Positions 65-29,371 of a DNA stretch of 33,394 nucleotides are shown here, in pieces. The stretch is taken from contig JAFTXD010000027.1 in NCBI GenBank assembly GCA_017461775.1, positions 1-33,394 on the forward strand, read 5' to 3'. The first letter of the stretch is position 1. Every line of letters starts with the position of its first letter. Origin of the DNA: Lachnospiraceae bacterium (GTDB lineage Bacteria > Bacillota > Clostridia > Lachnospirales > Lachnospiraceae). A model generated the notes under the pieces. That model was not told where the DNA came from. It worked only from the letters and a program-made list of their open reading frames with translations, and made no database searches. The translations under genes and the position numbers were made by a program.

Positions 65-1723
65 ATGGCTGAAAAGGTACTGAGTATTGAAATTGGAATG
101 CATACGACCAGAATCTGTATGACGGATTATAAGGTGAAAAATCCTAAAGTGTATGCTCATGCAAAATTTCCCACACCGAAGGGGTCCATTATTGATGGTG
201 AGATTCAGGTGACGGAGGAATTGGTGGATACCATAAAAAGTACTCTTTCTGCTAACAAAATGAACTGCAAGCAGGTGGTATTCACGGTGGCATCCTCTAA
301 GATTGCCAACAGAGAAATCGTGATTCCCAAGGCAAAGCCGAAGCAGATTGCTTCCCTGATTGCCAATAATGCCAGCGATTATTTCCCCATTGATTTGTCG
401 CAGTATGAGCTGGGACATGTGATTTTAGGGACTGTGCAGGAAAACAGTATTGAGAAGTATAAGGCTCTGGTACTGGCATTTCCTTTAAGTCTTTTGGAGA
501 GCTATCGGGAGATGGCTCATGCCATTGGTAAGCAGATTGCTGCGATTGACTATTCTGGTCACAGTATCTATCAGATGGTGAAAAATGAATGTGACGAGGG
601 CGTGCAGATGGTGGTGAAGATTGACGAAGAGTCTTCCATCGTAACCATCTTGAAGGAGAAGACCATCGTGCTGCAGAGAAATGTGGCATATGGTATCAAT
701 GATGCTTTGGCAACGATTATGGAAACACCTGCTTTCATGGCTCCGACCTATGAGGAAGCAGTGGATTTAAGTACCCGCAAAACCTGCACCAAGCTTTCCA
801 TCAGTGCGAAGCAGATGATTGAGGCGGAGGAAGAAGAAGAGGACGCCATGCTGCTTGCCGGAAAGCAGGCGGTGGCAAATTCCCTGAAAATGATTATCAA
901 CGGTATCGGCAGAATCATGGATTACCATGCATCCCGCAACAATGGGGAGGGTGTGGAGCAAATCTATATTACCGGTATGGGTGCGAATTTCAGTGGTTTA
1001 TCCAAGCTTCTGACCAATGAGCTGGGCGTGAAGACCAAGGGACTGGTGCATTTGGAAGGCTTCAATATCGAAAAAGCCTTTAAGGATGGGCTCTTTGGTG
1101 AGTATATCGCTTGTATCGGAGCGGCAGTGGCTCCGCTGGGATTGGTTTCTGATAAAAAGGATAAGGACAATAAGGCGAAGAAGGCCGGAAATGATTATAC
1201 GGGAGCATCCGTTTTACTTCTGATAGGCGGCACGCTGATTGGTATCGCATTAGTGGCAGTATCCTACATGAATTACATGCAGGCAGAGCAGGAGTATAAC
1301 AATAATATTCGCCGGATGAATGAATTGGTGGATATTCGTGGTCTGCATGCTAATTATCTGGTGACAGAGGATGCCTATGGGCAGATTCAAAAGCTTTATG
1401 CAGTGACGGAGAATCACAATGAGAATATGTTGCAGTTTATCTCAGAGCTGGAGGAAAAGATGCCTGCCAATATCCGGGTGAAAACGTTCAGTGCCATGCT
1501 GGATAATGTGACCATGAACATCGAAGTGGACACCAAGGAAGAGATGGCGGTGGCGCTTCAGGAGCTTCGTCATATGAAGTCCGTGGAGACGGTGACGGTA
1601 ATGGGTGTGTCCGATGACGTGGATGAGAATGATAATCGTGTGGTGACCTTTACGGTCAGCTGTATATATAAGACCATGGAGCAGATGGCCTTGGAAGAGG
1701 CACTGCTTAAGGAAGGCAACTAG
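65..1723 (+). CDS. pilM: PilM-PilN fusion, type IV pilus inner-membrane assembly protein
   Basis: The 552-residue protein joins two proteins that are normally separate. Residues 1 to about 360 resemble PilM, the actin-like cytoplasmic ATPase of the type IV pilus alignment complex: an N-terminal phosphate-loop-like segment (IEIGMHTTRI, 8-17), a second one near 183-195 (KIDEESSIVTI), and an adenosine-type motif near 300-312 (IYITGMGANFSGL). A lysine-rich linker is followed by one membrane span at about 379-402. The outer part (403-552) resembles PilN: a short coiled coil, then MLQFISELEEKMPANIRVK and the beta-alpha-beta pattern of its ferredoxin-like domain. PilM alone is usually about 350 residues. 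The nucleotide motifs are diverged from the usual DIGSSSxK form, so ATP binding is uncertain. Start ATG 65 follows GGAAAGG at 47-53. The next gene begins 11 bases downstream. Family assignment is from motif pattern, not from a search. Confidence 0.8.
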   Translation: MAEKVLSIEIGMHTTRICMTDYKVKNPKVYAHAKFPTPKGSIIDGEIQVTEELVDTIKSTLSANKMNCKQVVFTVASSKIANREIVIPKAKPKQIASLIANNASDYFPIDLSQYELGHVILGTVQENSIEKYKALVLAFPLSLLESYREMAHAIGKQIAAIDYSGHSIYQMVKNECDEGVQMVVKIDEESSIVTILKEKTIVLQRNVAYGINDALATIMETPAFMAPTYEEAVDLSTRKTCTKLSISAKQMIEAEEEEEDAMLLAGKQAVANSLKMIINGIGRIMDYHASRNNGEGVEQIYITGMGANFSGLSKLLTNELGVKTKGLVHLEGFNIEKAFKDGLFGEYIACIGAAVAPLGLVSDKKDKDNKAKKAGNDYTGASVLLLIGGTLIGIALVAVSYMNYMQAEQEYNNNIRRMNELVDIRGLHANYLVTEDAYGQIQKLYAVTENHNENMLQFISELEEKMPANIRVKTFSAMLDNVTMNIEVDTKEEMAVALQELRHMKSVETVTVMGVSDDVDENDNRVVTFTVSCIYKTMEQMALEEALLKEGN

Positions 1724-1734
1724 GAGGGGAGCAG

Positions 1735-2445
1735 ATGAAAAAGAGTGATATCAATTTGTTATTGGCTTTTTTAGGCATTATGGTTGCTTTCTGCTCCTAT
1801 CAGTTTGTATACAAGAAGATGGAAGAGAGAACGGCGGCACTGGAGGCGAGAAATGCTCAGATGAGGACGGAAATCGCCACTATGGAAAGCTGGTTGCCGG
1901 ACAAAGAGTTTTACGAATCGGAAATGGACAGGATGCATGATGAGATATCCAGGATGGTGAGAGAGTTCCCGGCAAATGTGCTTCCGGAGGATGATATTAA
2001 GCTGGCATATCAGATGGACAATCGTTTGACGGGGGATTATGTGTTTGTCAACAGCATGTCCTTTACGGATCCGGTGGCATCCTATACCACCACCTATGAT
2101 ACCTCCAAGGCGGATATTTCCCAGGTAAATCCCATTACCGTGGAACCTCTGTATCCGGTATATACTCTGTATAATACCCAGGTGAATATGGGGATTGACT
2201 GTAGCTATGGTGGTATCAAGGATATGATTGAGACCATTTATAATAAAAAGGAACGAAAGGCTATTGATTCCATCGTGCTTTCCTTTGATGAAACCACGGG
2301 AAGGCTGGGAGGAAGTCTGGCCATGACCTCTTATTTCCTGTATGGTACGGATACGGTGTACATGGAGCCGGATTTGCATGAAGTGAATAAGGGAACGGAT
2401 AATATTTTTGGTACAGTGGAGTCGTCGGAGGACGATGACAATTAA
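1735..2445 (+). CDS. pilO: PilO-like inner-membrane protein
   Basis: A 236-residue bitopic protein. It has a short cytoplasmic N-terminus (MKKSD), one membrane span at about 6-25, a charged coiled coil at about 28-75 and an extracytoplasmic globular part. This is the architecture of PilO, which pairs with PilN to link PilM to the outer parts of a type IV pilus machine. Its position directly after the PilM-PilN fusion supports this. The N-terminus reads INLLLAF, which recalls the INLLP peptide with which PilN usually grips PilM, so it may combine PilN- and PilO-like roles. The ribosome site is very strong (AGGAGGGG at 1722-1729) and overlaps the previous stop codon. The acidic tail is EDDDN. 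Sequence identity to known PilO is not obvious; the call rests on topology and context. Confidence 0.65.
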   Translation: MKKSDINLLLAFLGIMVAFCSYQFVYKKMEERTAALEARNAQMRTEIATMESWLPDKEFYESEMDRMHDEISRMVREFPANVLPEDDIKLAYQMDNRLTGDYVFVNSMSFTDPVASYTTTYDTSKADISQVNPITVEPLYPVYTLYNTQVNMGIDCSYGGIKDMIETIYNKKERKAIDSIVLSFDETTGRLGGSLAMTSYFLYGTDTVYMEPDLHEVNKGTDNIFGTVESSEDDDN

Positions 2446-2456
2446 GAAAGGGCCAC

Positions 2457-2481
2457 AGGCATGCGCTCATGGCGCATGCCT
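2457..2481 (+). promoter_or_regulatory. intergenic hairpin between pilO-like and first prepilin gene
   Basis: A perfect 10-bp inverted repeat: AGGCATGCGC, loop TCATG, GCGCATGCCT. It fills the only sizeable gap (2446-2506) in the upstream part of the pilus operon. It is followed by TTTCATGCTTT, a weak U-rich stretch, so it could act as a partial terminator/attenuator or as an mRNA-stabilising end for the pilM-pilO segment. Confidence 0.65.
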
Positions 2482-2506
2482 TTCATGCTTTATATCAGAA
2501 AGTGAA

Positions 2507-3835
2507 ATGGAACAGGTGAAAGAGCTATTTTTTCGGAAAAAGAGAAAATTGAATAATAAGGGTGTCACCCTTGTGGAACTGCTTGTTTCCATTACCATAC
2601 TCAGTATTGTGGTGGGAGCCTTTTACAGTTGCTTTGTACTGGCGGCAAAGACCAATGCCAAGGCAAAAATGGCTCACAAGGCCACCACATTGGCGCAAAA
2701 CCTTATGGAGAATATTAAGTCGGAGGATATGGACAATCTGATGGGACAGATTGTGTGGCCTACTTATACGGTTGCGCAGGAGGATGGAAGTGTCAGAACT
2801 GTGCAGAATTTCCGTCTGGTGTCCCAGAGTGGGTATGATGTAGGGAATGTGATTTCCTTTGCAGAGGCAGATAAGCCCTATGCCACAAGTAATGATGGGG
2901 GAATCACCACAGTATATAACCCGGAGGTGGATTCCTATAGCTTTAGTCTGCGGAATGTGAAGATGGAGAATACCTCTTTTGATGCACTGGTGACGGTGAA
3001 GGCTTCTGAGGCTGTGGATGGAGCCGGGGAGTCCATTGGTACAAAGGATATGGTGCATATTCCTTCTATGGATTCTAATTATGATGCGGTGGTATCCAAT
3101 GCGGCAGTGTACGATGTGGAGGCGTTGTCTTACTTTGAGTCCAAGGGTGTGTATGATGTGCTTTCGCACGGTAATATTACCAGAACCATTACGGTGGATG
3201 TGGATAAGGACCCAAAGCTGAGTGGTCAGATAGGGTACGAGGTAAAGGCGACCTACCGCTACGAATGTGAGGATGAGCTGTACGAGGTGACGGATCTGGC
3301 TTTCAGTAATGAAGGGGACATGTCCAAGGCACTTCGGAATGTGTTTATTTTTTATAAGCCCCATTTTAGCTGGGTGGATACGGATGACTGGACGGAGAAA
3401 ATCGTGGCGAATAATCCGGATGATTATCCTTTGGATTTGTATTTGATAAAGCAGCAGCCTACGGATGATGAGGGCGAGCTGGGACAGGAAGAGACTACGG
3501 AATATTGTGTGGCTATCGATATTAATGAGCCCTACAGTAGTACGGATGAGCACTCCTCCATACGAATAAAGACCAATTTAGGATATGCTTTTAAGAATCC
3601 GACCATTCCCATGACTCTATATAAACAGGGCGTGTATACGGTGAATGGGGCCAGTGTTTCCAATTACGAAGATTTTTTCCGGATGGCCGCATTGACCAAC
3701 AAAAGCGAGACGGAGCTTTTGTTCGATGTGAATATTAGGATTTATGCAGGGGATGCCACCAGAACGGTAAGTGGGGCATCATCCTATGACGGGGAAACGG
3801 TTCTTGCGGAACTGAATGGTACCCTTAGAAACTAG
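2507..3835 (+). CDS. large type IV prepilin-like protein (PilV/GspI-like)
   Basis: A 442-residue protein with a class III (prepilin) leader: 19 residues rich in K/R ending in LNNKG, then VTLVE with glutamate at +5 and a hydrophobic helix (LLVSITILSIVVGAFYSCFVLAA). Prepilin peptidase would cut after G19. The helix is followed by the K-A-T-x-L-A-Q-N-L pattern common in minor pilins of the PilV/GspI type. The rest (about 60-442) is a beta-rich extracellular body I do not recognise, with two cysteines only near the helix and middle. It is much larger than typical minor pilins (about 150-200 residues). The frame is open upstream to 2408, including ATG 2435 with GGAGG only 3 bases away, but that start would translate through the hairpin at 2457-2481 and give an unusually long leader, so ATG 2507 is preferred. 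The ribosome site before 2507 is weak. Confidence 0.75.
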   Translation: MEQVKELFFRKKRKLNNKGVTLVELLVSITILSIVVGAFYSCFVLAAKTNAKAKMAHKATTLAQNLMENIKSEDMDNLMGQIVWPTYTVAQEDGSVRTVQNFRLVSQSGYDVGNVISFAEADKPYATSNDGGITTVYNPEVDSYSFSLRNVKMENTSFDALVTVKASEAVDGAGESIGTKDMVHIPSMDSNYDAVVSNAAVYDVEALSYFESKGVYDVLSHGNITRTITVDVDKDPKLSGQIGYEVKATYRYECEDELYEVTDLAFSNEGDMSKALRNVFIFYKPHFSWVDTDDWTEKIVANNPDDYPLDLYLIKQQPTDDEGELGQEETTEYCVAIDINEPYSSTDEHSSIRIKTNLGYAFKNPTIPMTLYKQGVYTVNGASVSNYEDFFRMAALTNKSETELLFDVNIRIYAGDATRTVSGASSYDGETVLAELNGTLRN

Positions 3836-3845
3836 GAGACAGTTT

Positions 3846-6077
3846 ATGAAGCTTTTTCAGAAGAGGAAAAAACTGAATAACGATGGTATGGCGCTGGTGC
3901 TGGTTATCGTGGTAATCGCCGTGGTAGCTATCTTTGCGTCGGTGCTGATGTCGCTTGCTCTTCTGAATTTCAAGATGATGATGACGGAGCGGGAGGCGAA
4001 GAAAAACTTCTACTCCGCAGAAGAGGTGCTGGACCAGATTCATATCGGTCTGGAGGAAATTGTGTCCGATGCCATCAATGAGGCATATACGAAGGCTATG
4101 CAGACCTATAAGGTGGATGAGTTTACGGAGCAGTATCGTGTGGCGCAGTTTAAGCTGGATTATATGACTTATGTGGAAGGAAAATTGCGTGATGTAGCAG
4201 CAGTGGATCAATATAAGGTGGATTCTTTGGTAAATATGCTGGCTGTGGATTTGCAGGCGAAGTACGATCCAGACAATGGACCACTTATCATTCGCTGTGG
4301 ACTGGGAGAAGGCGTGGCGAATCTGGAGGCGACGACGCAGGGACTTATTTTAAAGGATGTTTCCATCGAATATGCGGAGGGGGACTACTACTCCCATATC
4401 GAAACGGATATCCGCATCGGTTACCCGGAGGTGGAGCTGAATGAGGCGACGGTGATTCCCAATGTGTTTGATTATAGTATCATCGCCCATGAGAAACTTA
4501 CTTTTGACCAGAGTGTAGATGTAAGTGTAAAAGGGAATATATACGCCGGTGAAGGCGGTGCAGAGCTGCTCAATGGCTCTGAGATAAATGTAGAGAATGT
4601 GAATTACTTTGTAACCAGAGGTGAGCTGGTGGTAAATGAAGCTACCCGTCTGTCCCTGGAAGGGGATGGCTTCTGGAGCAGAGGAGTTGTGGTGAATAAG
4701 AGTGGTAAGCTTTCGGTGGATGGCGATGTGTATGTGCAGGATGATTTGACTATCTCCGGCAAGGGTGCCCATGTGGTGCTTGCGGGCAACTATTATGGTT
4801 ATGGGGACGGCAGTGAGGTGCTGGCAGGTATTTCCGCAGGAAACAGTGCTATTATCCTGAATTGCAAGGATGCGACTCTGGATATGAATGGGCTGGATAC
4901 CCTGATGCTTTGTGGAAACGCTTATATTAATGGAAATTCCATCAAGGTGGACGATGCGGATGTATCGGAGAGTGCAACGCACAATTCTGAGCAGATTATG
5001 CTGGGAACCTCTGTAGCTATGAAGACGGATCAGATAGCGTTCCTTGCACCGGCAGAATGCCTGGGAACGGTGCTGGAAAATGGTCAGACGAAGGTGATGG
5101 TAGGAAGTAATCCCATGTCGGAAGCAGAATATGAAAAGTGGTATAACACATATTCTACCCTGGTGGGATATAAAAAACTGGATGAGAATGTGGCAGTCTC
5201 TGCCTTGAAATCTCCGCTTTCTGCTTATGGACTGACTTCGGCAAGCTTTCAGACAATTTTTAAAAGAGTGGGGGCGGAGACCATATGTTATGTATATCTG
5301 AGATTTGATTCTCAGGAGCAGGCAGACAGGTATTATCGGGATTATATGACAGCCTGTGAAGAGCGGATGGAAAAATATCTGGAAAAGTATAACAATACTG
5401 TGCTGTTTGACCGGATGAGTACGGAGCAGCTTACCCGGGGAAATATCCTGACCTATAGTAGCAATAATGGGTATCTGGAGCCTTTGCGTGGAACGATTAC
5501 AGAGTCTATGGACAGTGAGGATAAGAAGACTTTGGCACAGCAGAAAAGTACGATGGTGAAAAATTACGGGGCGCTGTGCAGTAAATTGAGTATTAATTAC
5601 AACGGTCTGACCGCATTAGAGCTTAGCAGGGATGTGTATGAAAATCTGATTTTACAGACGGCGGTAGAAAATATCGGCGTAACAGAGTACACCCTGAATG
5701 ACATGACAGCACTGATTGGTGACAATAATGACGAGGGAAGTGCTCCGGTGCGTGTCGGCAGCAATGCTTCGGGAAATGAGAATTGTAAGCTGGTAATTGT
5801 TACCGGAGATGTGGAGGTCAGTGGAAATTTCGAGGGGCTGATTATCGCCGGTGGTGAGGTAAAGGTTACAGCTGGAGCAGGAGCTGTACTGGGAGGAGAC
5901 AATGCTGCGGTAACCAAGCTTTTACAGCATAAACCGGAGGCACTGGGGGGCCAGACGTTGATGGAAGCATATTTCATTGATGGCGCCAAGTATATCCTGA
6001 AGGGAAATGCCCTAAATGATTCGGCATATGTGAATCTGGATAGTGTGATTACTTATGTGAACTGGACAAAGAAGTAG
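3846..6077 (+). CDS. PilX/GspK-like giant pilin with beta-helix-like body
   Basis: A 743-residue protein. The leader MKLFQKRKKLNNDG is followed by MALVLVIVVIAVVAIFASVLM. It matches the N-terminus of PilX/GspK-type minor pilins, which have G-x-A-L and lack the +5 glutamate; GspK/PilX sit at the very tip of pseudopili and pili. After the helix comes a conserved-looking Y-S-A-E-E segment. Residues about 220-370 and again near the C-terminus (VTGDVEVSGNFEGLIIAGG) have short, regularly spaced beta-strand repeats of the kind seen in bactofilin-like or beta-solenoid folds. Start ATG 3846 has AGGAG at 3834-3838, overlapping the previous stop; the frame stays open upstream to 3816 but without a better site. 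Length is well above known GspK (about 320). The fold of the body is inference. Confidence 0.7.
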   Translation: MKLFQKRKKLNNDGMALVLVIVVIAVVAIFASVLMSLALLNFKMMMTEREAKKNFYSAEEVLDQIHIGLEEIVSDAINEAYTKAMQTYKVDEFTEQYRVAQFKLDYMTYVEGKLRDVAAVDQYKVDSLVNMLAVDLQAKYDPDNGPLIIRCGLGEGVANLEATTQGLILKDVSIEYAEGDYYSHIETDIRIGYPEVELNEATVIPNVFDYSIIAHEKLTFDQSVDVSVKGNIYAGEGGAELLNGSEINVENVNYFVTRGELVVNEATRLSLEGDGFWSRGVVVNKSGKLSVDGDVYVQDDLTISGKGAHVVLAGNYYGYGDGSEVLAGISAGNSAIILNCKDATLDMNGLDTLMLCGNAYINGNSIKVDDADVSESATHNSEQIMLGTSVAMKTDQIAFLAPAECLGTVLENGQTKVMVGSNPMSEAEYEKWYNTYSTLVGYKKLDENVAVSALKSPLSAYGLTSASFQTIFKRVGAETICYVYLRFDSQEQADRYYRDYMTACEERMEKYLEKYNNTVLFDRMSTEQLTRGNILTYSSNNGYLEPLRGTITESMDSEDKKTLAQQKSTMVKNYGALCSKLSINYNGLTALELSRDVYENLILQTAVENIGVTEYTLNDMTALIGDNNDEGSAPVRVGSNASGNENCKLVIVTGDVEVSGNFEGLIIAGGEVKVTAGAGAVLGGDNAAVTKLLQHKPEALGGQTLMEAYFIDGAKYILKGNALNDSAYVNLDSVITYVNWTKK

Positions 6078-6093
6078 GAGGCCGGGGAGCAAC

Positions 6094-6603
6094 GTGAGGA
6101 AGAAAAATTCATTTCAACTGAATAATCGAGGCATTTCTCTTACGGAGCTGATCGTTGTGATTGCCATCACTGCGGTTCTTGCGGGAGGTGGTATCACCTT
6201 GATGGGGCTGATACCCAGAACGCAGGTGAATGGATGCGTGCAGGATTTTGCAGGAACCATGAACCGGGTGAAGACCAACACCATGAGTTTCCAGGAGGTG
6301 AAGGTAGAGCTGTATCAGGATTCCACCGGTGTGTATATGCAGGTGTATAAGGGAAGTGATGCAGAGGACCCGGTGCTGATTGGAGAAAAGGGTGTTTGTG
6401 TGAAGGCTGTGATAGGCGGCTTAGAGCAGGAGTTGAATGGTAAGCGCCTGAAGCTGTCCTATGACCGGAGCAGTGGCGCTTTCAATGATGTGGAAATTGT
6501 TGGTGGCGGCGCATCCGGGGAATGCAGCAGTATTACCTTTTATAAGGGAATCACGCAGCGGACAGCGACGCTGGTGAAGCTGACCGGGAAGATATCTTAC
6601 TGA
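6094..6603 (+). CDS. minor prepilin, GspH/FimT-like
   Basis: A 169-residue prepilin. The leader MRKKNSFQLNNRG (13 residues) is followed by ISLTELIVVIAITAVLAGGG, with the +5 glutamate needed for assembly into a pilus. Size and the single beta-rich domain match GspH/FimT-type minor pilins, which help start pilus assembly. Two cysteines flank the middle of the domain. Start is GTG 6094 with GGGGAG at 6084-6089; a second AGGAGG overlaps the previous stop. The stop is TGA, which shows that TGA is a normal stop codon in this genome. It lies between the PilX-like and PilW-like genes with 16-base gaps on both sides. Confidence 0.8.
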   Translation: MRKKNSFQLNNRGISLTELIVVIAITAVLAGGGITLMGLIPRTQVNGCVQDFAGTMNRVKTNTMSFQEVKVELYQDSTGVYMQVYKGSDAEDPVLIGEKGVCVKAVIGGLEQELNGKRLKLSYDRSSGAFNDVEIVGGGASGECSSITFYKGITQRTATLVKLTGKISY

Positions 6604-6619
6604 GGATGAGGGAATTTGT

Positions 6620-9343
6620 ATGAGAAATTTCTTGAGGCATAGAAACAAAGGTTTTACACTTGTGGAGCTGATTGTAACCATTGCAATCATCACCATTGTG
6701 GGAGGTATCATAACCTCCTTCCTTTTGGTGTCTCAAAGACAGTATAACAATGGTGTGGCGGAAACCAGTGTACAGTATGATGCCCAGTTGGTGGGCAATC
6801 AGATTCATGATCTGCTCATCGATGCCCAGAGAGGCGTTTCCTATGGGTATGTCAGTGAGCTGGCAGATGGTACTACGGAGTCGGGTCTGATTATGGATAG
6901 CAGCACTCTGGGGGATTATCGTTCTTTGGAGTTGTATGTGTATAATTACGATAAGTACTACCGGATGCGCTGGGATAAGGATGCGAAGACGCTTTATTTT
7001 GCAGAGGCTGCGCCGGGAGTGACAATAACAAATAGTATGGAGGCGCTTCTGGCGGAGTTTGTAACGGATTTTTCCGTGGATTTGTCGGAGCTTTTAGCCA
7101 AAAAGACCATTCGCTACAGCATTACCTTTCGGAAGGAAGAGTCAGGAAGAGAGTATACCACCAATCATACGGTGAAACTGCGAAATGATGTTTTGATGAA
7201 TGCCTCAGAGGATGAAATATATGTGCCGGATCCGCCACTTGTGGAGGCTACCGGAATTGATGTATATCCGGAGAGCGTGGCCATTTGGCCGGGAGAGAGT
7301 GAAAAGCTGGCATCCAGAGTGACCAGTAACGTGGGGCTGATGCCTTCACAGGAGGTGGCGTGGTTTATCGCACCTCTTCCCAGTGGGGAAAGCTCTATAA
7401 CAGATACAACGACCGGATTTACGGAGGATGTGCTGTATATTGGTTTAAATGAAGAGGGGAAAACCATCGATGGAGAGCAGGGACGAATCAATGTGTATGC
7501 AAAGTCCACGGCGGTAGCCAATCTGCAATCGGATTACGTGAAGGTGGGAATACGCAGCATCCGCAAGCTTTCCACCAAAGCATATCAGTCAGAGGGAAAT
7601 TATGGGCTGGGAAGCAGCAGTAATGCTCAGAATGGAAGCTATAATATATCCGTAGTTGCCGGGCAGGAGGATATCTGCATCGATTTGGAGGCGTTTAAGG
7701 GCTTACATATCGGCGATTTGGTAATGGCAGATATGGAAGAAACCATTTCCAATATGGGAGGTATCACTATTACAGTAGGTGGGAATTATCTGCTTCTGGA
7801 TACCACGCTGGAGGAGGCGCAGAAGACCGGAAAAATACGGTTTGATGTGAAAAATATCATCGATTTTGGGGAGCAGAGCTCGGTGACTGCTCCGGTGACG
7901 ATTCGTTGTAACCGGGCTCCCTATACGGATGTACAGGAAACCATAAACGTGGTCATCACGCCGAAGGTGGTAAATGACCCAATCGACGTATCCAAGGGCT
8001 GGAAGCGAAATGGTGTGCTGGATATTGATTTATCCGAAATTCGTGGTGCGGTAGGTGATGGTACGGTAGTGGATGTGCATGTAAGATTTTATGGTATCAA
8101 TGCGGCAGGAGAAAAGCAGGGCTTTGATGCTTTGTATACTTACGGTGACCAGGACAGGCATGACCCGGATGTGGACGAGGAATTCCCGGATTATGTGGTG
8201 CAGCATCAGGAGGGAACTCCCTGTGAGCTTTTGTTTAACAAGGAGAACTTCAATGACGTGAAGCTGCGTCTGAAGGCTCATGAGGTATCCTACAGTGGCG
8301 CGTACTATGGATATTGGGGCGGCTTTGAGACCATAAGTGGTGCCTGGATATATATTACCTACGGGGAATATACCTCGAAGGTATACGATGTGGCCATAGA
8401 ACCGGTTTCTATGGAATATTCGTTGGATGGAATCAATTTATCCTCTTGGGACAAAGAGGGGGATATGACCATATATGCGGCACCGGTATCCGAGTATAAT
8501 AATTACGATATGTACAATGGATATTATTATGGTGCTAAGGATACCAGTCGTGAATATTATAAAACCTATAGGACGTATTATCGTCTTACCGGCGGCTGGC
8601 ACGTTTCTTCTGTGAAGGAAGAGTATACGATGAAGGATGATCAGTTTACCTGTATCATTGATGGAATGGCAGGTGTGGAAATTAAGACCGGTGATTATTC
8701 TTCGGAGAAGTTCTATTTTACAAAGAATGGTTATAGTGACGCCATGCAAAAGGATGGCTATATTGAGGTTGCATCCGGAGAGGATTCCTTTGGATACTAT
8801 ATCGATGTGAAGGTGCCGGATTCCCTGAATCAGTATTATGCAGAAAAAGGCAGTACCATGGTAGTGGTATATGAAGGAAACAGGGGGAGTGGACTTGCAA
8901 ATGAGCCGGATAACTTTGAGTTGATGAATGGCTGTGAATATGGCTTCAAGGTGAAATTTGTGGAGGATAATCTAAAAGAGGATTATGGAGTCTATGAACT
9001 GGTAAGAGATAGCTGGTTGTGGTGGAAGGAGCATTGGGAGTACAAGACCTATACCTTGTCAAGTCTCCCATCCACTCAGTATTGTCCGGCACAAAGTGAG
9101 CTGAAATCCCAGGGCTATGGAAATGGTACATATTTCTATATTTCACCTCAGGAAAGATATTATATCCGCACAGTTACCACAGGTACAAAGGAGACCTATT
9201 ATATCACCTTTGAGAAGTATACCTCTTCCATCGCCGGCAGTGGCAGATGGGCAGGTCAGTGGAAGGATAAGAATAAGTACACTATCTGGTTTTCTTATAA
9301 TCAGGATGATAAAGAGTGGCAGTACAGTACCATGAAATTTTAG
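6620..9343 (+). CDS. giant PilW/GspJ-like prepilin with Ig-like region
   Basis: A 907-residue protein with a canonical prepilin N-terminus: leader MRNFLRHRNKG, then FTLVELIVTIAIITIVGGII, +5 glutamate present. The next part (about 30-190) has the S-Q-x-x-Y-N-N and Q-x-x-L-I-D-A pattern typical of PilW/GspJ-like minor pilins. Residues about 212-320 (starting near ATGIDVYPESVAIWPGESEK) look like a bacterial Ig-like domain. The C-terminal 500 residues are unrecognised, beta-rich and unusually rich in tyrosine, particularly around 625-660. Minor pilins are normally 200-350 residues, so this carries a large extra adhesin-like body. ATG 6620 has only a weak site (GAGGGA). It is directly followed by the 1634-residue secreted protein, suggesting that the two work together at the cell surface. 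Confidence 0.75.
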   Translation: MRNFLRHRNKGFTLVELIVTIAIITIVGGIITSFLLVSQRQYNNGVAETSVQYDAQLVGNQIHDLLIDAQRGVSYGYVSELADGTTESGLIMDSSTLGDYRSLELYVYNYDKYYRMRWDKDAKTLYFAEAAPGVTITNSMEALLAEFVTDFSVDLSELLAKKTIRYSITFRKEESGREYTTNHTVKLRNDVLMNASEDEIYVPDPPLVEATGIDVYPESVAIWPGESEKLASRVTSNVGLMPSQEVAWFIAPLPSGESSITDTTTGFTEDVLYIGLNEEGKTIDGEQGRINVYAKSTAVANLQSDYVKVGIRSIRKLSTKAYQSEGNYGLGSSSNAQNGSYNISVVAGQEDICIDLEAFKGLHIGDLVMADMEETISNMGGITITVGGNYLLLDTTLEEAQKTGKIRFDVKNIIDFGEQSSVTAPVTIRCNRAPYTDVQETINVVITPKVVNDPIDVSKGWKRNGVLDIDLSEIRGAVGDGTVVDVHVRFYGINAAGEKQGFDALYTYGDQDRHDPDVDEEFPDYVVQHQEGTPCELLFNKENFNDVKLRLKAHEVSYSGAYYGYWGGFETISGAWIYITYGEYTSKVYDVAIEPVSMEYSLDGINLSSWDKEGDMTIYAAPVSEYNNYDMYNGYYYGAKDTSREYYKTYRTYYRLTGGWHVSSVKEEYTMKDDQFTCIIDGMAGVEIKTGDYSSEKFYFTKNGYSDAMQKDGYIEVASGEDSFGYYIDVKVPDSLNQYYAEKGSTMVVVYEGNRGSGLANEPDNFELMNGCEYGFKVKFVEDNLKEDYGVYELVRDSWLWWKEHWEYKTYTLSSLPSTQYCPAQSELKSQGYGNGTYFYISPQERYYIRTVTTGTKETYYITFEKYTSSIAGSGRWAGQWKDKNKYTIWFSYNQDDKEWQYSTMKF

Positions 9344-9367
9344 ATGTAACGGAGTAGGTATTACAGT

Positions 9368-12300
9368 ATGAGGAATTGGAAGAAAAATCCGAACTTCATA
9401 AAGGGAATGTGTTTTATGCTGGCAGGAGCCTTGGTTGTGTCCTCGGTAGTTGTTTTTGGGGGCGATAAAATGAAGGTTTCTGCGGCAAAAAATACCCTGC
9501 CGGGAATTGAACAGCTTCGGGAGGAATATATCGCCAATACGAAGACCTACCGTATTTTAGAAATTGTTCCCACGGTAGAGCAGGCAGAAATAGGGTATTA
9601 TATCGGTGGCCAGGAGCCGTTTTCGTTGCTCTATGATGAGGAAAGCAATGCTTACAGAACCTGGCAGGAGGTTCTTCTTGCACAGGAGGATGAGGCGGCA
9701 CGATATGCTTTTATGGAGGAGCTTTGCCAGCAGGCGGAGAGTGTGAATTCCTATTACAAAGAGGCAGGGATGGAGCCTTTTACTATCCGAGAGTATAAGG
9801 AGTATGAGGAGGGAGAACAGCCGGAGGATGCCACAGAGATTAAATTTGATGGCGATGTGAAAAGAGGCTATCTGGAGTATGCCGCAGGTGAGTGGGATGC
9901 TACTTTTACGGTGCTTTTGGATAGGGATATGTCTCTGGATGAAATAAATCATAGTGTTACCACACCCTATTATCGGGCAATGAATGTGGAAAAAGCTTTT
10001 TCCTACGAGGAGCTGAAGGTTTTTGCTGAGGAATATCCGGAGGAGGATTTGTATATTCTTCGTCCGGAGGGGCATCTGGAATATATGGGAGGTGCCCGGG
10101 AAGTATGGGAGGAAACCAGCGTTTATCTGGAAAAGCTTTTGGCTTCCGTCAGTGGAAACGATGTTTCCTCAGGGGATAGTACGGTGTCCGGTGGAAATAC
10201 AGTTCAGGATATCTGGCAGGAGCCTTCGGGCTTTTTTCATCCGTGGTTTGTGTTGATAGATTATGAGAATCCCATATCTCCGGGAGAGCAGGTGTATCTG
10301 ATGAGTGATGCCCAGTATATAGGAGAGGAGAAGGGGCATTACCAGCTGGTGGAGACCGTGGAGCGGGAGCAGCCGGGAGAGAGTTTTGCTTATGCAGCAA
10401 CCTTTCTGTACTTTACCGGTGGAGTGATCAATAATGAAGTTTTCAAAAAAGAAGTTTTTGGGCTGGAGGAGCAGGAGTGCAGCAGTCTCCGTGTGGAAGT
10501 GGAGACGGTAACCCCGGCTATGCTGAAAGCTCTTTTGGAAGAGAAAAAAATCACCAGTGTTTTAGAGGGTGCAGAGCTGTTTGCAGATTATAATTTTGTA
10601 TACATAAATGGCGGCGCTGCAATGACGGAAATTAAGGGTGTTGCCGGAAATTTCAGTACGGAAAATGACATTACGGCCATGCTGCTTGGGGCACTGGGCA
10701 TGTATATTTCTGTGGAAAAGGTGCCCTGTATTTTTGATTTACAGCCTTTTGTGAGTGCGAATACACACAGCTATTCTGTGAAGGATACGGAGGATGTAAA
10801 TGTGTCGGATACCTATCTGGGTAGGTTGGCGTATTTTCTGTTCGCTCCGGCATATGCAGAGACCGGGGATGATATTAAGGCGGATTTTTACTGGACGTAC
10901 GGGCCGAATTTATGGACTCTTGTCAATAATATGGGAAATTTGGATTTTACCTATTCTACCAATGAAGCCTGCTTTGGTTCCGGGTGGGCGGAGCTGGAAA
11001 ACCGGAAGGACGAGAGCGTGGCAGCACGGGATGCCTCCTTCGTAAAGGGCAATGTGTGGTTTATCTGTAATGAACCTGCCACAATTGGAGACGATTCCCT
11101 TGGAAACAGAGGTTTATTTTCCGATATGGAATATGCTTTGGAGCAAATAAAGGCCGGATTTTTGGGAGTGTATCAGGAAATTGGTGTGGAAAATATGTAT
11201 CTGGCAGAGCAGCAGGAAGAGCTTTTGGATACCAGAATTTACGATGCCAGTGTGTGCCGGTACATTATCAATTTCTGCAATCAGAGGCAGATGAGTAAGG
11301 ATGCTTTGGATGTGCTGGTAATTGAACCAGCGGGTAGAATATCGTCTCTCAGTGCAGAGGATTTTTCGGGGCTGACAGGAATTGAGGCGGGGAAAATTAC
11401 ATTCCATGTGATGGCTATGAATGAGTTTGTAGGACGCATTGAGGATTTGAATGCTTCCTATGACATCATATATTTTGATGCCAATACTTCCAATATGGTG
11501 ACCAGGGATGGACTCACTGTCTACAATGACAGCTCCATGAATGGGCTTTTGTATAGTCATGTGGGAGATACGTTGGAAGCTTTTGCGTCCATCAGTGGTC
11601 TGCTGGATACGGACTATACAGGGGATAACAGAAATGCAGCCACCCTAAAGGAGACTACCGTTCACCGGTACAGCGGAAATGATTTGTCCGTGGAGAAGTA
11701 TAATGCACTGATGGATTATCTGGATGCTAATTATCCTGTGGTGATTTCTTCAGAGCTGGTAAATGCGGATGGCACCGGAGCTAACGACGCAAGAGTGGAT
11801 AATTCTTCTTATTTATATGAGTTTTTAAGTGAGATATTAACGGATAAAACCAGAAGAAATATTTTTGTCAGCGGTTCCCTCAAGGAGCAGAAAAGTGCTT
11901 TTGCTTTTTATGCAAACAGGCCGAAATTATCTTTATATTCACCGGAGTATGAGGATTTAATCATGACAAAGGAGGTATATCTGGCTGACGGGGAGACGCA
12001 GAGTAATGTGACGCAGATTGTGCCCAGCGGTGGTAGATATTATCTACAGTTTGATTTTATCATTGAAAATGATAGTGCGGCCAATTTTGGCGATGATTAT
12101 ACCTGTAAGCTGTATCTGGATGCCAATGCAGATGGTAAGTTCTCGGAAAAATATGAGGAGCTGACGCTGGCGGGAAGTGATATCGTGAATGTATCCACGG
12201 GGCTTTCTGTGGGCAGTACGGATAAGCTGAAAACGGGAGTGCGTTATCAGGTTTCCAGAGAGATACCGGATTCCTTCTTTGGTTGTATTACCTGGCAGCT

Positions 12301-14272
12301 AGAGGTGTCCCAGACGGGATGTCCCAGCATTCGTACCCAGCATAAAGGGTATACCAAGCTCTCCGGTGGAGATGCGGCATATATCAAGGTTTTGCAGGTG
12401 TACTACCGGGAAGAGAGCAGAGTTATCAATCTGGAGCAGTCTATAGGACATTTTGAAAATGGAGCTTATGATAACTTCGGTATGACGTATGTCACCGATT
12501 ATTTTAAGGAGGTGGCGCAGAATGTCAGTGAGGATTATGTTCTGGACATCAAAACTATCTCAAAGGATGTGTTTGATACCGGTTATTATGATGGTGTCGG
12601 AGGTGTAGAACCCATTATTTTAAATGAGTATGATATGCTGATTCTGGGCTTTAGTGATGGTAATAATGCAGGGATGGACTGGAATCAGGGTATTGATACG
12701 GATTTACCCTGTGTGGATGCATCAGGAAATGTGATAAAGAATAATAATATCAGCCATTTCATTGAAAGTGGAAAGAGTGTGCTCTTTGCCCACGATATGA
12801 CTTCGACTATTAATGTACCCAATTATAATATGACGGTGGGAAGTAGTCTGGGAGAGGAATACCGCGTGGCGGAAAATGAAGGGCGGCTTGCCAGACAGTT
12901 CTATTATACGTCGGAGAATTTTTTCAATGAATATGCATGGGGTTATCGAATCAACACAAAGCTGCGTAGTCTGGTAGGTATGGATACCTATGGTATATCC
13001 GGTGGCTCTGCTGTCGGTGTCCTGCAGAAGGGAAAGAACTTGACGCAGGTAGAAAATACCACGCTATATAAGCTTGGTGAGGAGGGGCTTCTGGCACCTT
13101 ACAAGGTAGGAGAGCGGTACGTATATGGTGTACAGGACGTGGCCTTTGCGCCAAATACCGGAAGAAAATATACTACCTCTCAGGTACAGGGCTTTACGGC
13201 TTATGCGTTGAATATGCGTGTATATGGGGATGAGAATAATGTGGGCTATTATCGTAATGGTATGGCTCCCAATCGTTCCAATTACTATGCTACGACGGCG
13301 GAGAAGGTAAATGATGGACAGATTACCAATTATCCGTATATGATTAGTGAGATGCCTGCTTTGGCCAGAACTCACCAGCAGTATTATACTATGGATTTAA
13401 ATGCGGATAGTGACATGGACGGGGAAACTGATATTGTTGTCTGGTACAATTTGTCCGGTGCGGGATATGATGAGGCAACAGGCGATGTGAAGAATAATTA
13501 TTATATTTACAGTAAGGGTAATGTTATTTATACCGGTATGGGACATGCTGCCAGCATAAGTGGCTGGTATAACAGTAATTATTACAATTATTTCCAGACC
13601 GCGGTTACTATGGATGAGGCCAAGCTCTTTATCAACACTATGATAGCAGCCTATAATGCGGGGCAAAGAATTCCGGAGATTGTGACCATGGGTGCCAGTG
13701 GTGTGGCTACGGATGTGGTGTATAATTATTATGATTCTTTGATTTGGAATAGTGAGGCCAGTGTGGATTACGCCCAGGTTTTACCTTCTGATGATAAGGT
13801 GGAGGCATATTATCGAGTGGATGATTTGAACATTACTCAGGGTACCAAGGAAGTAGAGCTTCATTATTACATGGAGGTGGAGGCGCCTCTTGCCCAGATG
13901 CTTTCTGGAGAGGAGAATGGATATACGGTGGTAAGGGCAGCTGATTTACCGGATAGTGGTAGTGAAATGCCGGCGGATGTATATCTGGTGGAGGTGACGG
14001 ATTATTTGTTACCATACACCTATACTTCGGATGGAGAGAAGGTGCAGCTTACCGCCAGTGGCTATCTGCAGCCGGAAACAGTATACCGGGTAGAGATTCC
14101 GCTAAAATATTTTGATGCGGACAGTCAGGGCTACCGCAGCAGCTTTTACATCGGTGGAAGAACGGTGATGACCCATTCCTCCATCATTGATGGTTCCAAG
14201 GTGGCTTCCTATACTCCTTATGTGTATGCGCAGCTACAATGTGTGAATGTGGAGTTGTTTGATTTGGATTAA
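9368..14272 (+). CDS. giant secreted protein, DUF5057-like, candidate pilus-tip protein
   Basis: A 1634-residue exported protein. It has a Sec signal peptide (basic start MRNWKK, hydrophobic core about 12-31, likely cleavage after KVSA at about 39) and no prepilin motif, LPXTG anchor or C-terminal membrane span. The mature start (YRILEIVP ... EIGYYIGGQEP) and the C-terminal end match what I remember of Lachnospiraceae DUF5057 proteins; no function is established. Residues about 1085-1150 have a Rossmann-like alternation (YDMLILGFSDGN, then FIESGKSVLFAHDMTST) reminiscent of glutamine-amidotransferase-like domains without an evident catalytic set. Two acidic loops resemble calcium-binding motifs: D918-A-N-A-D-G and D1343-L-N-A-D-S-D-M-D-G. 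A serine/glycine linker (SGNDVSSGDSTVSGGN) lies near 262-277. It is the last gene before the terminator and stands where pilY1 stands in Gram-negative minor-pilin operons. Confidence 0.6.
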   Translation: MRNWKKNPNFIKGMCFMLAGALVVSSVVVFGGDKMKVSAAKNTLPGIEQLREEYIANTKTYRILEIVPTVEQAEIGYYIGGQEPFSLLYDEESNAYRTWQEVLLAQEDEAARYAFMEELCQQAESVNSYYKEAGMEPFTIREYKEYEEGEQPEDATEIKFDGDVKRGYLEYAAGEWDATFTVLLDRDMSLDEINHSVTTPYYRAMNVEKAFSYEELKVFAEEYPEEDLYILRPEGHLEYMGGAREVWEETSVYLEKLLASVSGNDVSSGDSTVSGGNTVQDIWQEPSGFFHPWFVLIDYENPISPGEQVYLMSDAQYIGEEKGHYQLVETVEREQPGESFAYAATFLYFTGGVINNEVFKKEVFGLEEQECSSLRVEVETVTPAMLKALLEEKKITSVLEGAELFADYNFVYINGGAAMTEIKGVAGNFSTENDITAMLLGALGMYISVEKVPCIFDLQPFVSANTHSYSVKDTEDVNVSDTYLGRLAYFLFAPAYAETGDDIKADFYWTYGPNLWTLVNNMGNLDFTYSTNEACFGSGWAELENRKDESVAARDASFVKGNVWFICNEPATIGDDSLGNRGLFSDMEYALEQIKAGFLGVYQEIGVENMYLAEQQEELLDTRIYDASVCRYIINFCNQRQMSKDALDVLVIEPAGRISSLSAEDFSGLTGIEAGKITFHVMAMNEFVGRIEDLNASYDIIYFDANTSNMVTRDGLTVYNDSSMNGLLYSHVGDTLEAFASISGLLDTDYTGDNRNAATLKETTVHRYSGNDLSVEKYNALMDYLDANYPVVISSELVNADGTGANDARVDNSSYLYEFLSEILTDKTRRNIFVSGSLKEQKSAFAFYANRPKLSLYSPEYEDLIMTKEVYLADGETQSNVTQIVPSGGRYYLQFDFIIENDSAANFGDDYTCKLYLDANADGKFSEKYEELTLAGSDIVNVSTGLSVGSTDKLKTGVRYQVSREIPDSFFGCITWQLEVSQTGCPSIRTQHKGYTKLSGGDAAYIKVLQVYYREESRVINLEQSIGHFENGAYDNFGMTYVTDYFKEVAQNVSEDYVLDIKTISKDVFDTGYYDGVGGVEPIILNEYDMLILGFSDGNNAGMDWNQGIDTDLPCVDASGNVIKNNNISHFIESGKSVLFAHDMTSTINVPNYNMTVGSSLGEEYRVAENEGRLARQFYYTSENFFNEYAWGYRINTKLRSLVGMDTYGISGGSAVGVLQKGKNLTQVENTTLYKLGEEGLLAPYKVGERYVYGVQDVAFAPNTGRKYTTSQVQGFTAYALNMRVYGDENNVGYYRNGMAPNRSNYYATTAEKVNDGQITNYPYMISEMPALARTHQQYYTMDLNADSDMDGETDIVVWYNLSGAGYDEATGDVKNNYYIYSKGNVIYTGMGHAASISGWYNSNYYNYFQTAVTMDEAKLFINTMIAAYNAGQRIPEIVTMGASGVATDVVYNYYDSLIWNSEASVDYAQVLPSDDKVEAYYRVDDLNITQGTKEVELHYYMEVEAPLAQMLSGEENGYTVVRAADLPDSGSEMPADVYLVEVTDYLLPYTYTSDGEKVQLTASGYLQPETVYRVEIPLKYFDADSQGYRSSFYIGGRTVMTHSSIIDGSKVASYTPYVYAQLQCVNVELFDLD

Positions 14273-14280
14273 TTTTGAGA

Positions 14281-14315
14281 AGGCATTGGCTTATTAGAGC
14301 CAGTGCTTTCTTTTT
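14281..14315 (+). terminator. rho-independent terminator of the pilus operon
   Basis: Stem GCATTGGCT (14283-14291) pairs with AGCCAGTGC (14298-14306) with one G-U pair and a 6-base loop, followed by TTTCTTTTT. It lies just past the stop of the giant secreted protein and closes the pilus unit. Confidence 0.88.
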
Positions 14316-14346
14316 GCACATTTTATGAACTTTAGAAATTTTTTCC

Positions 14347-17601: not shown

Positions 17602-17991
17602 ATGTTTAATACAAATGCTTTTGATTATATTAATGTGCTTGACAGAGCAGCGGACGCAACCTGGCTTCGAAATGAAGCGATTTCTAATAATATCGCAAAT
17701 GCTACCACTCCGGGATACAAGCGTCAGGATGTAGCTTTTGAGTCCGAGCTGAGAAAAGCGCTGGGGTATGATTTATGTGAATCCATGGATGAGAAGGTGT
17801 CCGATTTCCAGACAAAGAAGTTCTCACCCAAGGCTTATACGGACAGTCAGGGATATTCTTACAGACTGGACGGTAACAATGTGGATATCGACAATGAGAA
17901 TGTATATCTGGCTGAGAACCAGTTAAAATATCAGGGACTTATCAGTGCTATGACTTCTGAGTTCCAGAATTTACAGTCAGTGATGAAGTAG
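17602..17991 (+). CDS. flgB: flagellar basal-body rod protein FlgB
   Basis: A 129-residue proximal rod protein exported by the flagellar type III system, first gene of the flagellar operon. The family signature NNIANATTPGYKR lies at about 29-41 after an N-terminal amphipathic helix, and the C-terminus ends in the usual helix for rod packing (NQLKYQGLISAMTSEFQNLQ). Start ATG 17602 has AAGGAGGT at 17588-17595. An overlapping ATG at 17598 is out of frame. Confidence 0.97.
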   Translation: MFNTNAFDYINVLDRAADATWLRNEAISNNIANATTPGYKRQDVAFESELRKALGYDLCESMDEKVSDFQTKKFSPKAYTDSQGYSYRLDGNNVDIDNENVYLAENQLKYQGLISAMTSEFQNLQSVMK

Positions 17992-18005
17992 GGGGATAAA
18001 TAAGT

Positions 18006-18467
18006 ATGAGTATGTTTTCGGCTTTTAACATTAATGCTTCCGGTATGACTGCCCAGAGATATCGTATGGACATTATTTCGGAAAATGTTGCCAATGCCAA
18101 TACCACACGTACCGCGGACGGTACACCTTATCGCCGTAAGGTAGTGGTTTTTGAGGAGAAGGCAGGAAGAAATACCTTTGGTTCCACGCTTGCCAATGCC
18201 AGCGAGAAATTATCCGGCTCCGGTAAGTACAGCGGTCAGGGTGTGAAGGTGACCGGTGTGTACGGAGATTATGAAACGGAGATGAACAAAGTATATGACC
18301 CATCTCATCCGGATGCGGACGAGGATGGATATGTTACATATCCCAATGTAAATATCGTTTCGGAAATGACCAACATGATTGATGCCAGCCGCGCTTACGA
18401 GGCGAATGCAACTGCATTTTCTGCAAGTAAGTCCATGGCACTTCTTGGATTAGAGATGGGAAAGTAA
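18006..18467 (+). CDS. flgC: flagellar basal-body rod protein FlgC
   Basis: A 153-residue rod protein that follows FlgB in the proximal rod. It shows SGMTAQRYRMDIISENVANANTT near 12-34 and the C-terminal PNVNIVSEMTNMIDASRAYEANATAF segment that defines the family. A GGGGGA site lies 9 bases before ATG, 14 bases after flgB. Length is normal. Confidence 0.97.
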   Translation: MSMFSAFNINASGMTAQRYRMDIISENVANANTTRTADGTPYRRKVVVFEEKAGRNTFGSTLANASEKLSGSGKYSGQGVKVTGVYGDYETEMNKVYDPSHPDADEDGYVTYPNVNIVSEMTNMIDASRAYEANATAFSASKSMALLGLEMGK

Positions 18468-18478
18468 GGTAGGATAGT

Positions 18479-18820: not shown

Positions 18821-18876
18821 GCTTGTACGGCAGAGTCTGAAAGAAGGATAAATTTTAGTAACAAGGGAGAAGCTTC

Positions 18877-20472: not shown

Positions 20473-20476
20473 GCTT

Positions 20477-22358: not shown

Positions 22359-22371
22359 GTAGTGAAGATTA

Positions 22372-23694: not shown

Positions 23695-23706
23695 GAGTGT
23701 TAATCC

Positions 23707-24177: not shown

Positions 24178-24182
24178 GCAGT

Positions 24183-25043: not shown

Positions 25044-25110
25044 GTATTTGGGACTTTTGGTCGATATATTTAATGGCGTATTTTAAAATTTTTTAGAAAG
25101 GAGGAGAGAG

Positions 25111-26406: not shown

Positions 26407-26420
26407 AAAAGGAGCAGGAT

Positions 26421-27062: not shown

Positions 27063-27085
27063 AGCGGAGAAGGAGCGCATAGGCG

Positions 27086-27487: not shown

Positions 27488-27563
27488 CTGGACCTTAGGG
27501 GAGCTACCATTTCCTGACTGACAGAGGGAAAACTGCCAAAGAGACTTAGGAGGTCAATTAATT

Positions 27564-29321: not shown

Positions 29322-29333
29322 GATAATATAAGG

Positions 29334-29368: not shown

Positions 29369-29371
29369 TTA

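Follow-up and report, generated by a model that had tools for sequence, protein, structure and literature searches.

In diderm bacteria such as Neisseria, Pseudomonas and Myxococcus, the type IV pilus combines four minor pilins (FimU, PilV, PilW and PilX) with PilC/PilY1, a very large Sec-secreted non-pilin protein. PilY1 has a variable N-terminus and a conserved C-terminal carrier according to the available text of PMC8179133, and the accessible part of a 2023 paper (PMC9934059) states that monoderms lack this non-pilin effector found in diderm pili. The type IVa pilus of the monoderm Streptococcus sanguinis has oversized modular minor pilins (PilA, PilB and PilC) that sit at the tip and carry vWA and lectin modules; these three pilins do not form an H-I-J-K set, and the same part of PMC9934059 describes no non-pilin cap. 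Clostridial operons, for example those of C. perfringens, are of the pilB-pilC-pilD-pilM-pilN type, and no giant cap is mentioned for them in the available portion of PMC3244431.

Here we analyzed a 33,394-nt stretch of DNA from a Lachnospiraceae bacterium (contig JAFTXD010000027.1, hereafter the window), in which positions 65 to 14272 make up the distal half of an operon for a type IVa pilus. Its machinery genes are of the clostridial type. As in the diderm PilC/PilY1 set, four minor pilins are encoded together with a very large Sec-secreted non-pilin (the giant), the PilX (K) subunit lacks Glu5, and the giant is variable toward its N-terminus and better conserved in its carrier. Unlike in those systems, the host is a monoderm, PilX is several times longer than its Gram-negative counterparts, and the giant has no PF05567 propeller by profile search but a DUF5057 carrier with two homologous α/β-type domains. 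With S. sanguinis the locus shares a monoderm host and oversized modular minor pilins, PilW bearing large extra modules, and it differs in having a four-pilin set plus a separate giant.

All genes are on the forward strand in the order PilM-PilN fusion, PilO, PilV, PilX, FimT, PilW and the 1634-aa giant, followed by a terminator. The fusion protein (65..1723) consists of an actin-like PilM domain that matches PilM_2 (PF11104, E = 1.8e-15), a membrane helix and a PilN-like domain, the latter assigned by eye from the sequence; a profile built from 8 orthologues matched PilM structures (best E = 1.8e-21). The PilO-like protein (1735..2445), which matched no Pfam family above its cut-off, was identified from its position and from orthologues at the equivalent place in relatives, and this completes a PilM, PilN and PilO alignment complex. 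A rho-independent-type terminator lies 3' of the giant gene (14276..14318; -24 kcal/mol, z = -6.3 against shuffled sequences) and is followed by a T run; a consensus terminator scan listed none in this stretch. The core of the type IVa machine, namely PilB, the platform protein PilC, the major pilin PilA and the prepilin peptidase PilD, is encoded elsewhere in this genome, close to one end of contig C14, the pilD ORF having only 175 aa compared with approximately 250 in relatives. The retraction ATPase PilT is encoded on contig C152 (profile E = 4e-171), its gene being inside the pil operon in many relatives, and the operon is unbroken in several of them. A platform protein and small pilin-like proteins are encoded in a separate small cluster on contig C51, and ComEC is also present in this genome.

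The initial annotation, made from the window alone, had placed five consecutive genes here, and all are where it put them. It had read them as a type IV pilus operon of a Firmicutes bacterium, with minor pilins of the H/I/J/K type and a giant secreted protein where pilY1 would be, which our analysis bears out. It would have given up this reading had orthologous clusters lacked any pilus ATPase or prepilin peptidase; genes for both, and for PilC and a major pilin, are present. Its description of a largely undescribed surface organelle was too strong because the machine is of the ordinary type IVa kind and S. sanguinis is already known to have large modular pilins at the pilus tip.

The prepilin set is real, with N_methyl matches in three proteins, a weak PilX_N match in the fourth and a conserved gene order. 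PilV (I-type, 442 aa, 2507..3835, LNNKG/VTLVE) matches N_methyl with E = 1.6e-7 and contains Glu5, and its match to TIGR02523 pilV (2.2e-8) is under the family cut-off. PilX (K-type, 743 aa, 3846..6077, LNNDG/MALVL) lacks Glu5 and matches PilX_N (Pfam) below the curated cut-off (6.2e-4); it has a long repeat-like β region, and profile searches linked it weakly to ice-binding proteins and bactofilin (best E = 0.046). PilX translation may also start at an in-frame ATG at 3816. FimT/GspH (H-type, 169 aa, 6094..6603) matches N_methyl with E = 3.4e-5 and contains Glu5. PilW (J-type, 907 aa, 6620..9343; N_methyl, E = 6.4e-8) is a modular pilin in which approximately 700 aa of extra C-terminal modules are grafted onto a pilin N-terminus. 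The four cleavage contexts are LNNKG, LNNDG, LNNRG and RNKG, three of them sharing the LNNxG form as first annotated. Together these proteins make up an H-I-J-K set, four prepilins in one operon with a K subunit devoid of Glu5. Glu5 was absent from PilX in all 30 operons tabulated and present in every PilV, FimT and PilW with a cleavage site named by our script, which favours Glu5-containing sites and left one PilA (L122) without a call. Gram-negative minor pilins are smaller, and three of the four in the window are 2 to 4 times their size. This agrees with the size difference claimed initially, but within the lineage a long PilX is normal (669 to 1303 aa across the 30 operons), whereas PilW varies from 168 to 1049 aa, many orthologues having 168 to 310 aa compared with 907 in the window.

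The last gene of the operon (9368..14272) encodes the giant, our proposed non-pilin tip cap. It is a member of the DUF5057 family (PF16480, E = 8.1e-39; 134.5 bits, curated cut-off 27.9; residues 771–1143), which has no assigned function and is here tied to type IV pili. Its N-terminus is signal-peptide-like (by eye and hydropathy), and its sequence contains neither a sortase-like motif nor a second strong hydrophobic segment. From the N-terminus the protein comprises region D1, domain D2, an intervening region, domain D3 and a C-terminal tail, VELFDLD. D2 and D3 are homologous and of the α/β type (hhalign probability 95.8, E = 7.4e-9); an internal repeat formed by D1 and D2 was rejected, homology being found for D2 and D3 only. 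Homology to PilY1 was likewise rejected by profile search, the PilY1 β-propeller PF05567 having no match in the giant at E ≤ 1, so that the giant is "unrelated" to PilY1, as had been proposed, at the sequence level only. The same profile matched 0 of 295 order genomes, an uncontrolled negative as no control genome matched either. Pfam recognised no known adhesive domain and no DNA-binding domain in the window's own giant, the giant core had no match to PDB sequences at E ≤ 1, and a scan of viral contigs gave no relative. D3 gave only three chance-level matches to solved structures (E = 0.42–0.43) and a weak match to ThuA, of the class I glutamine amidotransferase-like fold, in 2 of 20 D3 sequences (best E = 0.022). 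Seven His, Asp and Glu residues are invariant across these 20 aligned sequences, which come from 27 giants considered (the other giants either escaped the pattern or were excluded): D1097, H1142, D1143, H1336, D1373, H1393 and E1417 in window numbering. AlphaFold models based on two-sequence alignments (the window and one relative, L041) reached a pLDDT of 29.8 for residues 640–1634 of the giant and 36.0 for PilX, values too low for the models to be used.

Past residue 1430 the giant is no better conserved than in its N-terminal part, the extreme C-terminus excepted. Leucine occupies position -2 in all 24 giants tabulated from the order and class, and the tail motif [LMI][FY]xLx is found in 21 of the 24, compared with 41 of 40185 internal positions; this set leaves out the three most distant giants, from f56, and the one from G084, which end in -RY and -DSI, respectively, and have no Leu at -2 or LFxL tail. 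In a later set of 40 tails, one of them cut at a contig end, Leu was at -2 in 37 and the strict motif was complete in 29.

DUF5057 genes sit in pil operons across the family, the order and beyond, which makes the giant a part of the type IV pilus system. Among near relatives DUF5057 was found in 10 of 61 genomes, in all 10 within pil operons. In the order sample, the giant profile matched 17 and PilX 40 of 295 genomes; 15 of the 17 also had PilX, and in those 15 the minor-pilin genes directly precede the giant gene. The other two are G184, with a partial D3-like match at a non-pil locus, and G084, whose giant is on a contig fragment. The family sample contained DUF5057 in 63 and PilX in 68 of 299 genomes, and 56 of the 63 DUF5057 genomes also had PilX at E ≤ 1e-20 (Fisher p ~1e-40, which ignores shared ancestry). 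Among the seven DUF5057 genomes with no PilX match, three (G724, G842 and G871) carry the giant together with the genes from pilMN to pilW, PilX being divergent; a contig end of G759 bears a PilX fragment, the locus is rearranged in G745 and cut in G945, and in G980 the giant is an orphan. At 40 further DUF5057 loci (the stronger part of the matches, minus genomes already seen and a second G756 locus, C121), pilX lies upstream in the same run in 33, six are cut or rearranged and one is the orphan. Three of these seven loci begin at the edge of a contig, and in a fourth a truncated ORF was read as PilW modules, the pilX half of all four genomes being on different contigs, which stop within or ahead of the giant; the other three are another cut PilW-module-like ORF, a rearranged pilB-pilT-pilC-giant fragment and the orphan. 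The synteny proposed as a check thus extends far beyond the window's own genome, most adjacency loci having been selected through their DUF5057 match. Outside the order, the giant gene adjoins pil genes in 4 of 4 DUF5057 genomes, and in f56 this linkage is kept although the giant gene is divergently transcribed. Giants from outside the order carry PA14 or ice-binding-like adhesive domains, and NPCBM occurs in a tandem neighbour.

The giant also co-varies with PilX length. By locus, it accompanies a long PilX in 67 of 68 cases and a short PilX in 0 of 4, a biased comparison since most loci were fetched by their DUF5057 match. We therefore used a count starting from PilX. The family sample has 65 genomes with a long PilX, and 64 of these have a giant or a secreted-looking protein in its slot; 56 of the 65 were scored by co-occurrence in the same genome and not by adjacency. 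Six operons without a DUF5057 match have in this slot a secreted-looking protein of 726 to 1024 aa with a similar start and chain end. A giant or such a protein is absent from all four short-PilX operons inspected that have visible downstream sequence (two each from the family and order samples); further short PilX-like matches occur in the order sample's other families. Departures from the pattern are found in family f22, where all four inspected operons, broadly of the clostridial kind, have a long PilX or PilX-like gene without an adjoining giant, and in single genomes of f24 (G085), f2 (G062), f5 (G265) and the window's family (G816). In G039 a vWA and lectin protein is encoded 3' of pilW, with one other gene between. 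The orphan giant of G980, an 85%-complete genome, lies near topA with no nearby pil genes and no PilX match elsewhere; read by eye, its flanking genes are comM-like and dprA-like.

Gene content and order, conservation, the terminator, the conserved tail and the co-variation with long PilX are best explained if the giant is a non-pilin cap docked on the long K subunit at the pilus tip, similar to PilC/PilY1 in role and unrelated to it in sequence, which we consider likely. The four minor pilins would assemble into a complex of the H-I-J-K type, which initiates the filament and comes to lie at its tip, with PilX, which lacks Glu5, as the outermost pilin. The giant would be exported by Sec and bind the complex, the long PilX extension being the most likely docking site and the conserved C-terminal strand of the giant, which closes the chain as LFxL[D/E], the most likely contact. 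It would then ride outward on the tip. Docked and carried in this way, it would work like PilC/PilY1 with a sequence-unrelated carrier. It is probably a tip cap that grips surfaces or sugars: its variable N-terminal part and inserted modules, together with the PilW and PilX modules, would contact the target, which may be a surface, a mucus or plant polysaccharide or other cells, and PilT retraction would draw the cell toward it. A bolder version, which we regard as speculative, is that monoderms evolved their own cap, a DUF5057 carrier clipped by its C-terminal strand onto an enlarged K. Because of its invariant His, Asp and Glu residues, the possibly ThuA-like D3 may then bind or process a sugar or polymer, making the tip ligand-specific or even enzymatic.

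Three other explanations were weighed. The H-I-J-K set is common to type II secretion systems, and the available parts of PMC7541494 and PMC10191384 describe interactions between it and secreted effectors there. The giant could thus be the dedicated substrate of a type II secretion-like piston, engaged by the minor-pilin complex and released rather than retained at the tip, as its ordinary signal peptide and the lack of a wall anchor would allow. We think this unlikely given that many relatives encode PilT within the operon, and this genome at another place, and that a single constant partner whose tail is conserved is more in keeping with a structural part; moreover, monoderm bacteria lack an outer membrane through which a piston would have to push. 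Somewhat less probable still is that the giant is a protein of the cell surface or matrix that acts independently of the pilus and shares its transcript purely for regulation. Neighbourhood alone is no proof of contact, the giant has no known anchor or binding partner, and the G980 orphan fits such a protein, but the linkage holds in the order, the class and beyond despite the divergent transcription in f56, and both the co-variation with PilX length and the conservation of the extreme C-terminus speak against this reading. A DNA-uptake pilus with the giant as DNA-capture device, to which ComEC and the comM-like and dprA-like neighbours of the orphan could point, appears very improbable: the small cluster on C51 is separate from this operon, no DNA-binding domain was recognised in the giant, and in some relatives its slot is occupied by PA14, NPCBM, lectin-type or adhesive domains.

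Under the tip-cap reading, the element that looks new is the non-pilin cap family and not the pilus machine. If it is correct, type IV pilus tips would have a second, sequence-unrelated cap, the part reported missing from Gram-positive bacteria. A domain of unknown function would gain one if DUF5057 proteins fill the PilC/PilY1 role, and an adhesive organelle would be predicted for roughly one in five genera sampled in the window's family (63 of 298).

The window is one entire contig of an assembly of 172 contigs (2.9 Mb, 82% complete), and its 5' edge falls inside a pil operon. On the forward strand, this operon encodes a PilM-N fusion (65-1723), a PilO-like protein (1735-2445), PilV-like (2507-3835), PilX/GspK-like (3846-6077), FimT/GspH-like (6094-6603) and PilW-like (6620-9343) proteins, and a secreted giant protein of 1634 residues (9368-14272, forward strand). 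The initial annotation had ascribed prepilin N-termini to the four consecutive genes from pilV to pilW, and we found them in all four. The giant gene follows pilW after a gap of 24 bases, and a hairpin (-24 kcal/mol, z -6.3) and then a T run lie 3' of it; the simplest reading is therefore that the operon ends with this gene. Downstream of it are topA, codY, and the flagellar genes flgB to fliM with a cut CheC-domain protein (17602-33266), so that genes of the pilus, the CodY regulator and the flagellum neighbour each other. The topA-codY-flgB-flgC order recurs in another fetched locus (L035). Judging by length and profile, most operons seen in the family, treated as Lachnospiraceae, share the window's PilM-PilN fusion; in some distant operons (L037, L094, L119) the two proteins are separate.

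The pilB, pilC, pilD and major pilin genes that the initial annotation proposed to look for are present on another contig of the same genome, C14. Searching for the extension ATPase identified PilB on this contig (E 1.2e-136), which reads in reverse pilB, pilC, pilA (prepilin site LNNKG|FSLVEL) and a pilD-like ORF, whose end lies 425 bases short of the contig end. This pilD ORF (L015:426-953, minus strand) encodes 175 amino acids compared to about 250 in relatives, and lies near the contig end. PilT is encoded on contig C152. In several relatives the order pilB-(pilT)-pilC-pilA-pilD-pilMN-pilO-pilV-pilX-fimT-pilW-giant is uninterrupted, and a one-contig genome (G006) carries the whole operon, without pilT at that place. 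The C14 genes and these unbroken operons thus show that the minor pilin cluster does have a pilus ATPase and a prepilin peptidase. The assembly also contains a second pilV-pilX pair on a contig of 3380 bases (L104, contig C101), with DNA identities of 85% to L041, the locus of a Lachnospiraceae MAG from the rectum of a roe deer, and about 75% to the window; this contig probably comes from a related species and was binned into this genome. Contig C51 (L016:8903-11656) carries a further, small cluster for a type IV filament, possibly of the competence type, in which a PilC-like platform protein is accompanied by several small pilin-like genes.

The giant belongs to Pfam DUF5057 (134.5 bits), and its association with pil genes was analyzed in several samples (co-occurrence counts are given as they stand, uncorrected for shared ancestry). 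Among near relatives, DUF5057 occurred in 10 of 61 genomes, each time inside a pil operon. In 295 genomes of the order, the giant profile matched 17 and the PilX profile 40; in the 15 with both, the minor-pilin genes are directly followed by the giant, and the 2 exceptions are G084, a contig fragment, and G184, where a partial match lies among polysaccharide-type genes. In 299 genomes of the window's family, DUF5057 was present in 63, PilX (E<=1e-20) in 68, and both in 56. From this family sample 40 DUF5057 loci were fetched in listed order, leaving out genomes already seen; pilX lies upstream on the same strand in 33 of them (in one case only as a fragment of 105 aa where the contig ends). 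Among the other loci, the sequence of L131, L149 and L160 starts only at a contig end, and L141 contains a truncated ORF, read as PilW modules; the genomes of these four encode PilX on other contigs, which stop in or before the giant. L147 has a cut ORF resembling that of L141, and L148 is a rearranged pilB-pilT-pilC-giant fragment. The last one is an orphan giant (L143:12112-16059) near topA, flanked by comM-like and dprA-like genes; the 20 kb retrieved contain no pil genes, and its genome (G980, 85% complete) has no PilX match. Tandem or repeated copies also occur: in L096:8171-18301 (G278) one pil operon is followed by two giants, and in each of G877, G756 and G958 two contigs carry DUF5057 genes. 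Sampling 398 genomes of the phylum outside the order added four DUF5057 genomes, and in all four the giant adjoins pil genes. Three of these giants are divergently transcribed; they combine Ig-like repeats with an ice-binding-like adhesive domain (PF20597, E 8.5e-50 to 4.7e-40). The remaining giant has a PA14 domain (2.8e-8), and the protein encoded in tandem with it has NPCBM (2.2e-47). In L119:2633-12369, pilW is followed by tandem large secreted proteins, first one with NPCBM and then one with PA14 and DUF5057; each of the two has -SLD as its chain end.

Twelve family genomes have PilX without a DUF5057 match. One of them (G799) encodes a 2847-aa giant that was found with a fuller giant profile, and in another (G859) the giant is truncated by the contig end. 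Six (G162, G739, G780, G812, G900, G968) encode, directly after pilW, a protein of 726-1024 aa with a signal-like N-terminus. By eye, these six slot proteins start like the ILEIVP of D1, the N-terminal region of the giant, and have Leu at position -2 of the chain end; the D1 profile matches 2 of 6, and BLAST (E<=1e-4) connects 5 of 6 to giants. G816 has a long PilX with neither giant nor slot protein. In G830, G903 and G895 PilX is short (250-348 aa) and a giant is absent, the sequence of G895 stopping at pilW. In two genomes of the window's own genus (G235, G322), a short PilX (244 and 246 aa) and a 703-aa PilW are directly followed by topA. Counting from PilX, a giant or slot protein is present in 64 of the 65 long-PilX genomes of the family sample (for 56 of the 65, by co-occurrence in the genome). 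Among short-PilX operons whose downstream sequence could be seen, two from the family sample and two from the order sample, 0 of 4 have one. In the window's family a long PilX extension and the putative cap therefore go together, and this co-variation agrees with a cap that docks on the K subunit. A strict rule is contradicted by family f22, where in all 4 operons inspected a long PilX or PilX-like gene stands without an adjoining giant, and by single genomes of f24, f2 and f5 with the same arrangement; short PilX-like matches occur in other families too, and the pattern described here is that of the window's family. In L088:11902-16302, a vWA and L-type lectin protein takes the place of the DUF5057 giant, and a small protein, S-layer-homology-like by eye, lies between it and the pil operon.

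In all 30 tabulated operons PilX lacks Glu5, as is characteristic of the K subunit that caps H-I-J-K complexes; Glu5 is present at the PilV, FimT and PilW sites that the script could assign. Published work describes a K subunit without Glu5 that occupies the tip (PMC9934059, PMC7541494). Lengths in the 30 operons range from 669 to 1303 aa for PilX and from 168 to 1049 aa for PilW, which places the window PilW among the subset with large grafted modules; no module was recognised in it. The PilX of one relative (G022) resembles fascin and CBM56 models, and the giant of that genome resembles models of the crystallin type; every one of these matches falls under the curated cut-offs.

Within the core of the giant, domains D2 and D3 are homologous (hhalign probability 95.8, E 7.4e-9), and comparison did not extend this kinship to D1. 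D3 has a set of polar residues invariant across 20 aligned sequences, 2 of which weakly match ThuA (best E 0.022). The giant of the roe deer MAG is 65% identical to that of the window. Among five near relatives (10 pairs), mean pairwise identity is 0.35 in the core compared to 0.26 in the N-terminal part, and the stretch past residue 1430 equals the latter (0.26). At the chain end, giants of the order and class have Leu at position -2 in 24 of 24 and [LMI][FY]xLx in 21 of 24, with an internal background of 41 in 40185 positions; the motif is missing from the giants of family f56 and G084, tabulated apart from these 24. Of the later 40 loci, one of them cut at a contig end, 29 show the strict tail and 37 have Leu at -2. 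We read this conserved tail as a putative docking strand.

Excerpts of earlier work state that PilC/PilY1 is absent in monoderms (PMC9934059), list meningococcal PilC among proteins missing from Gram-positive species (PMC4471445), and describe a complex of PilY1 with minor pilins that primes the pilus and forms its tip (PMC7541494). A full-text search of open-licence papers gave no match for the term DUF5057, and no Gram-positive counterpart of PilC/PilY1 was among the matches listed from that literature (titles and abstract starts), so one may be in print. A pil operon is reported as a virulence factor of Paenibacillus thiaminolyticus (PMC9765702). With gene content, order, conservation and co-variation as observed, the giant is best read as a PilY1-type cap that shares with PilY1 its proposed role but is built from a different protein family, and which would form a complex with the minor pilins, dock at the pilus tip and mediate adhesion.
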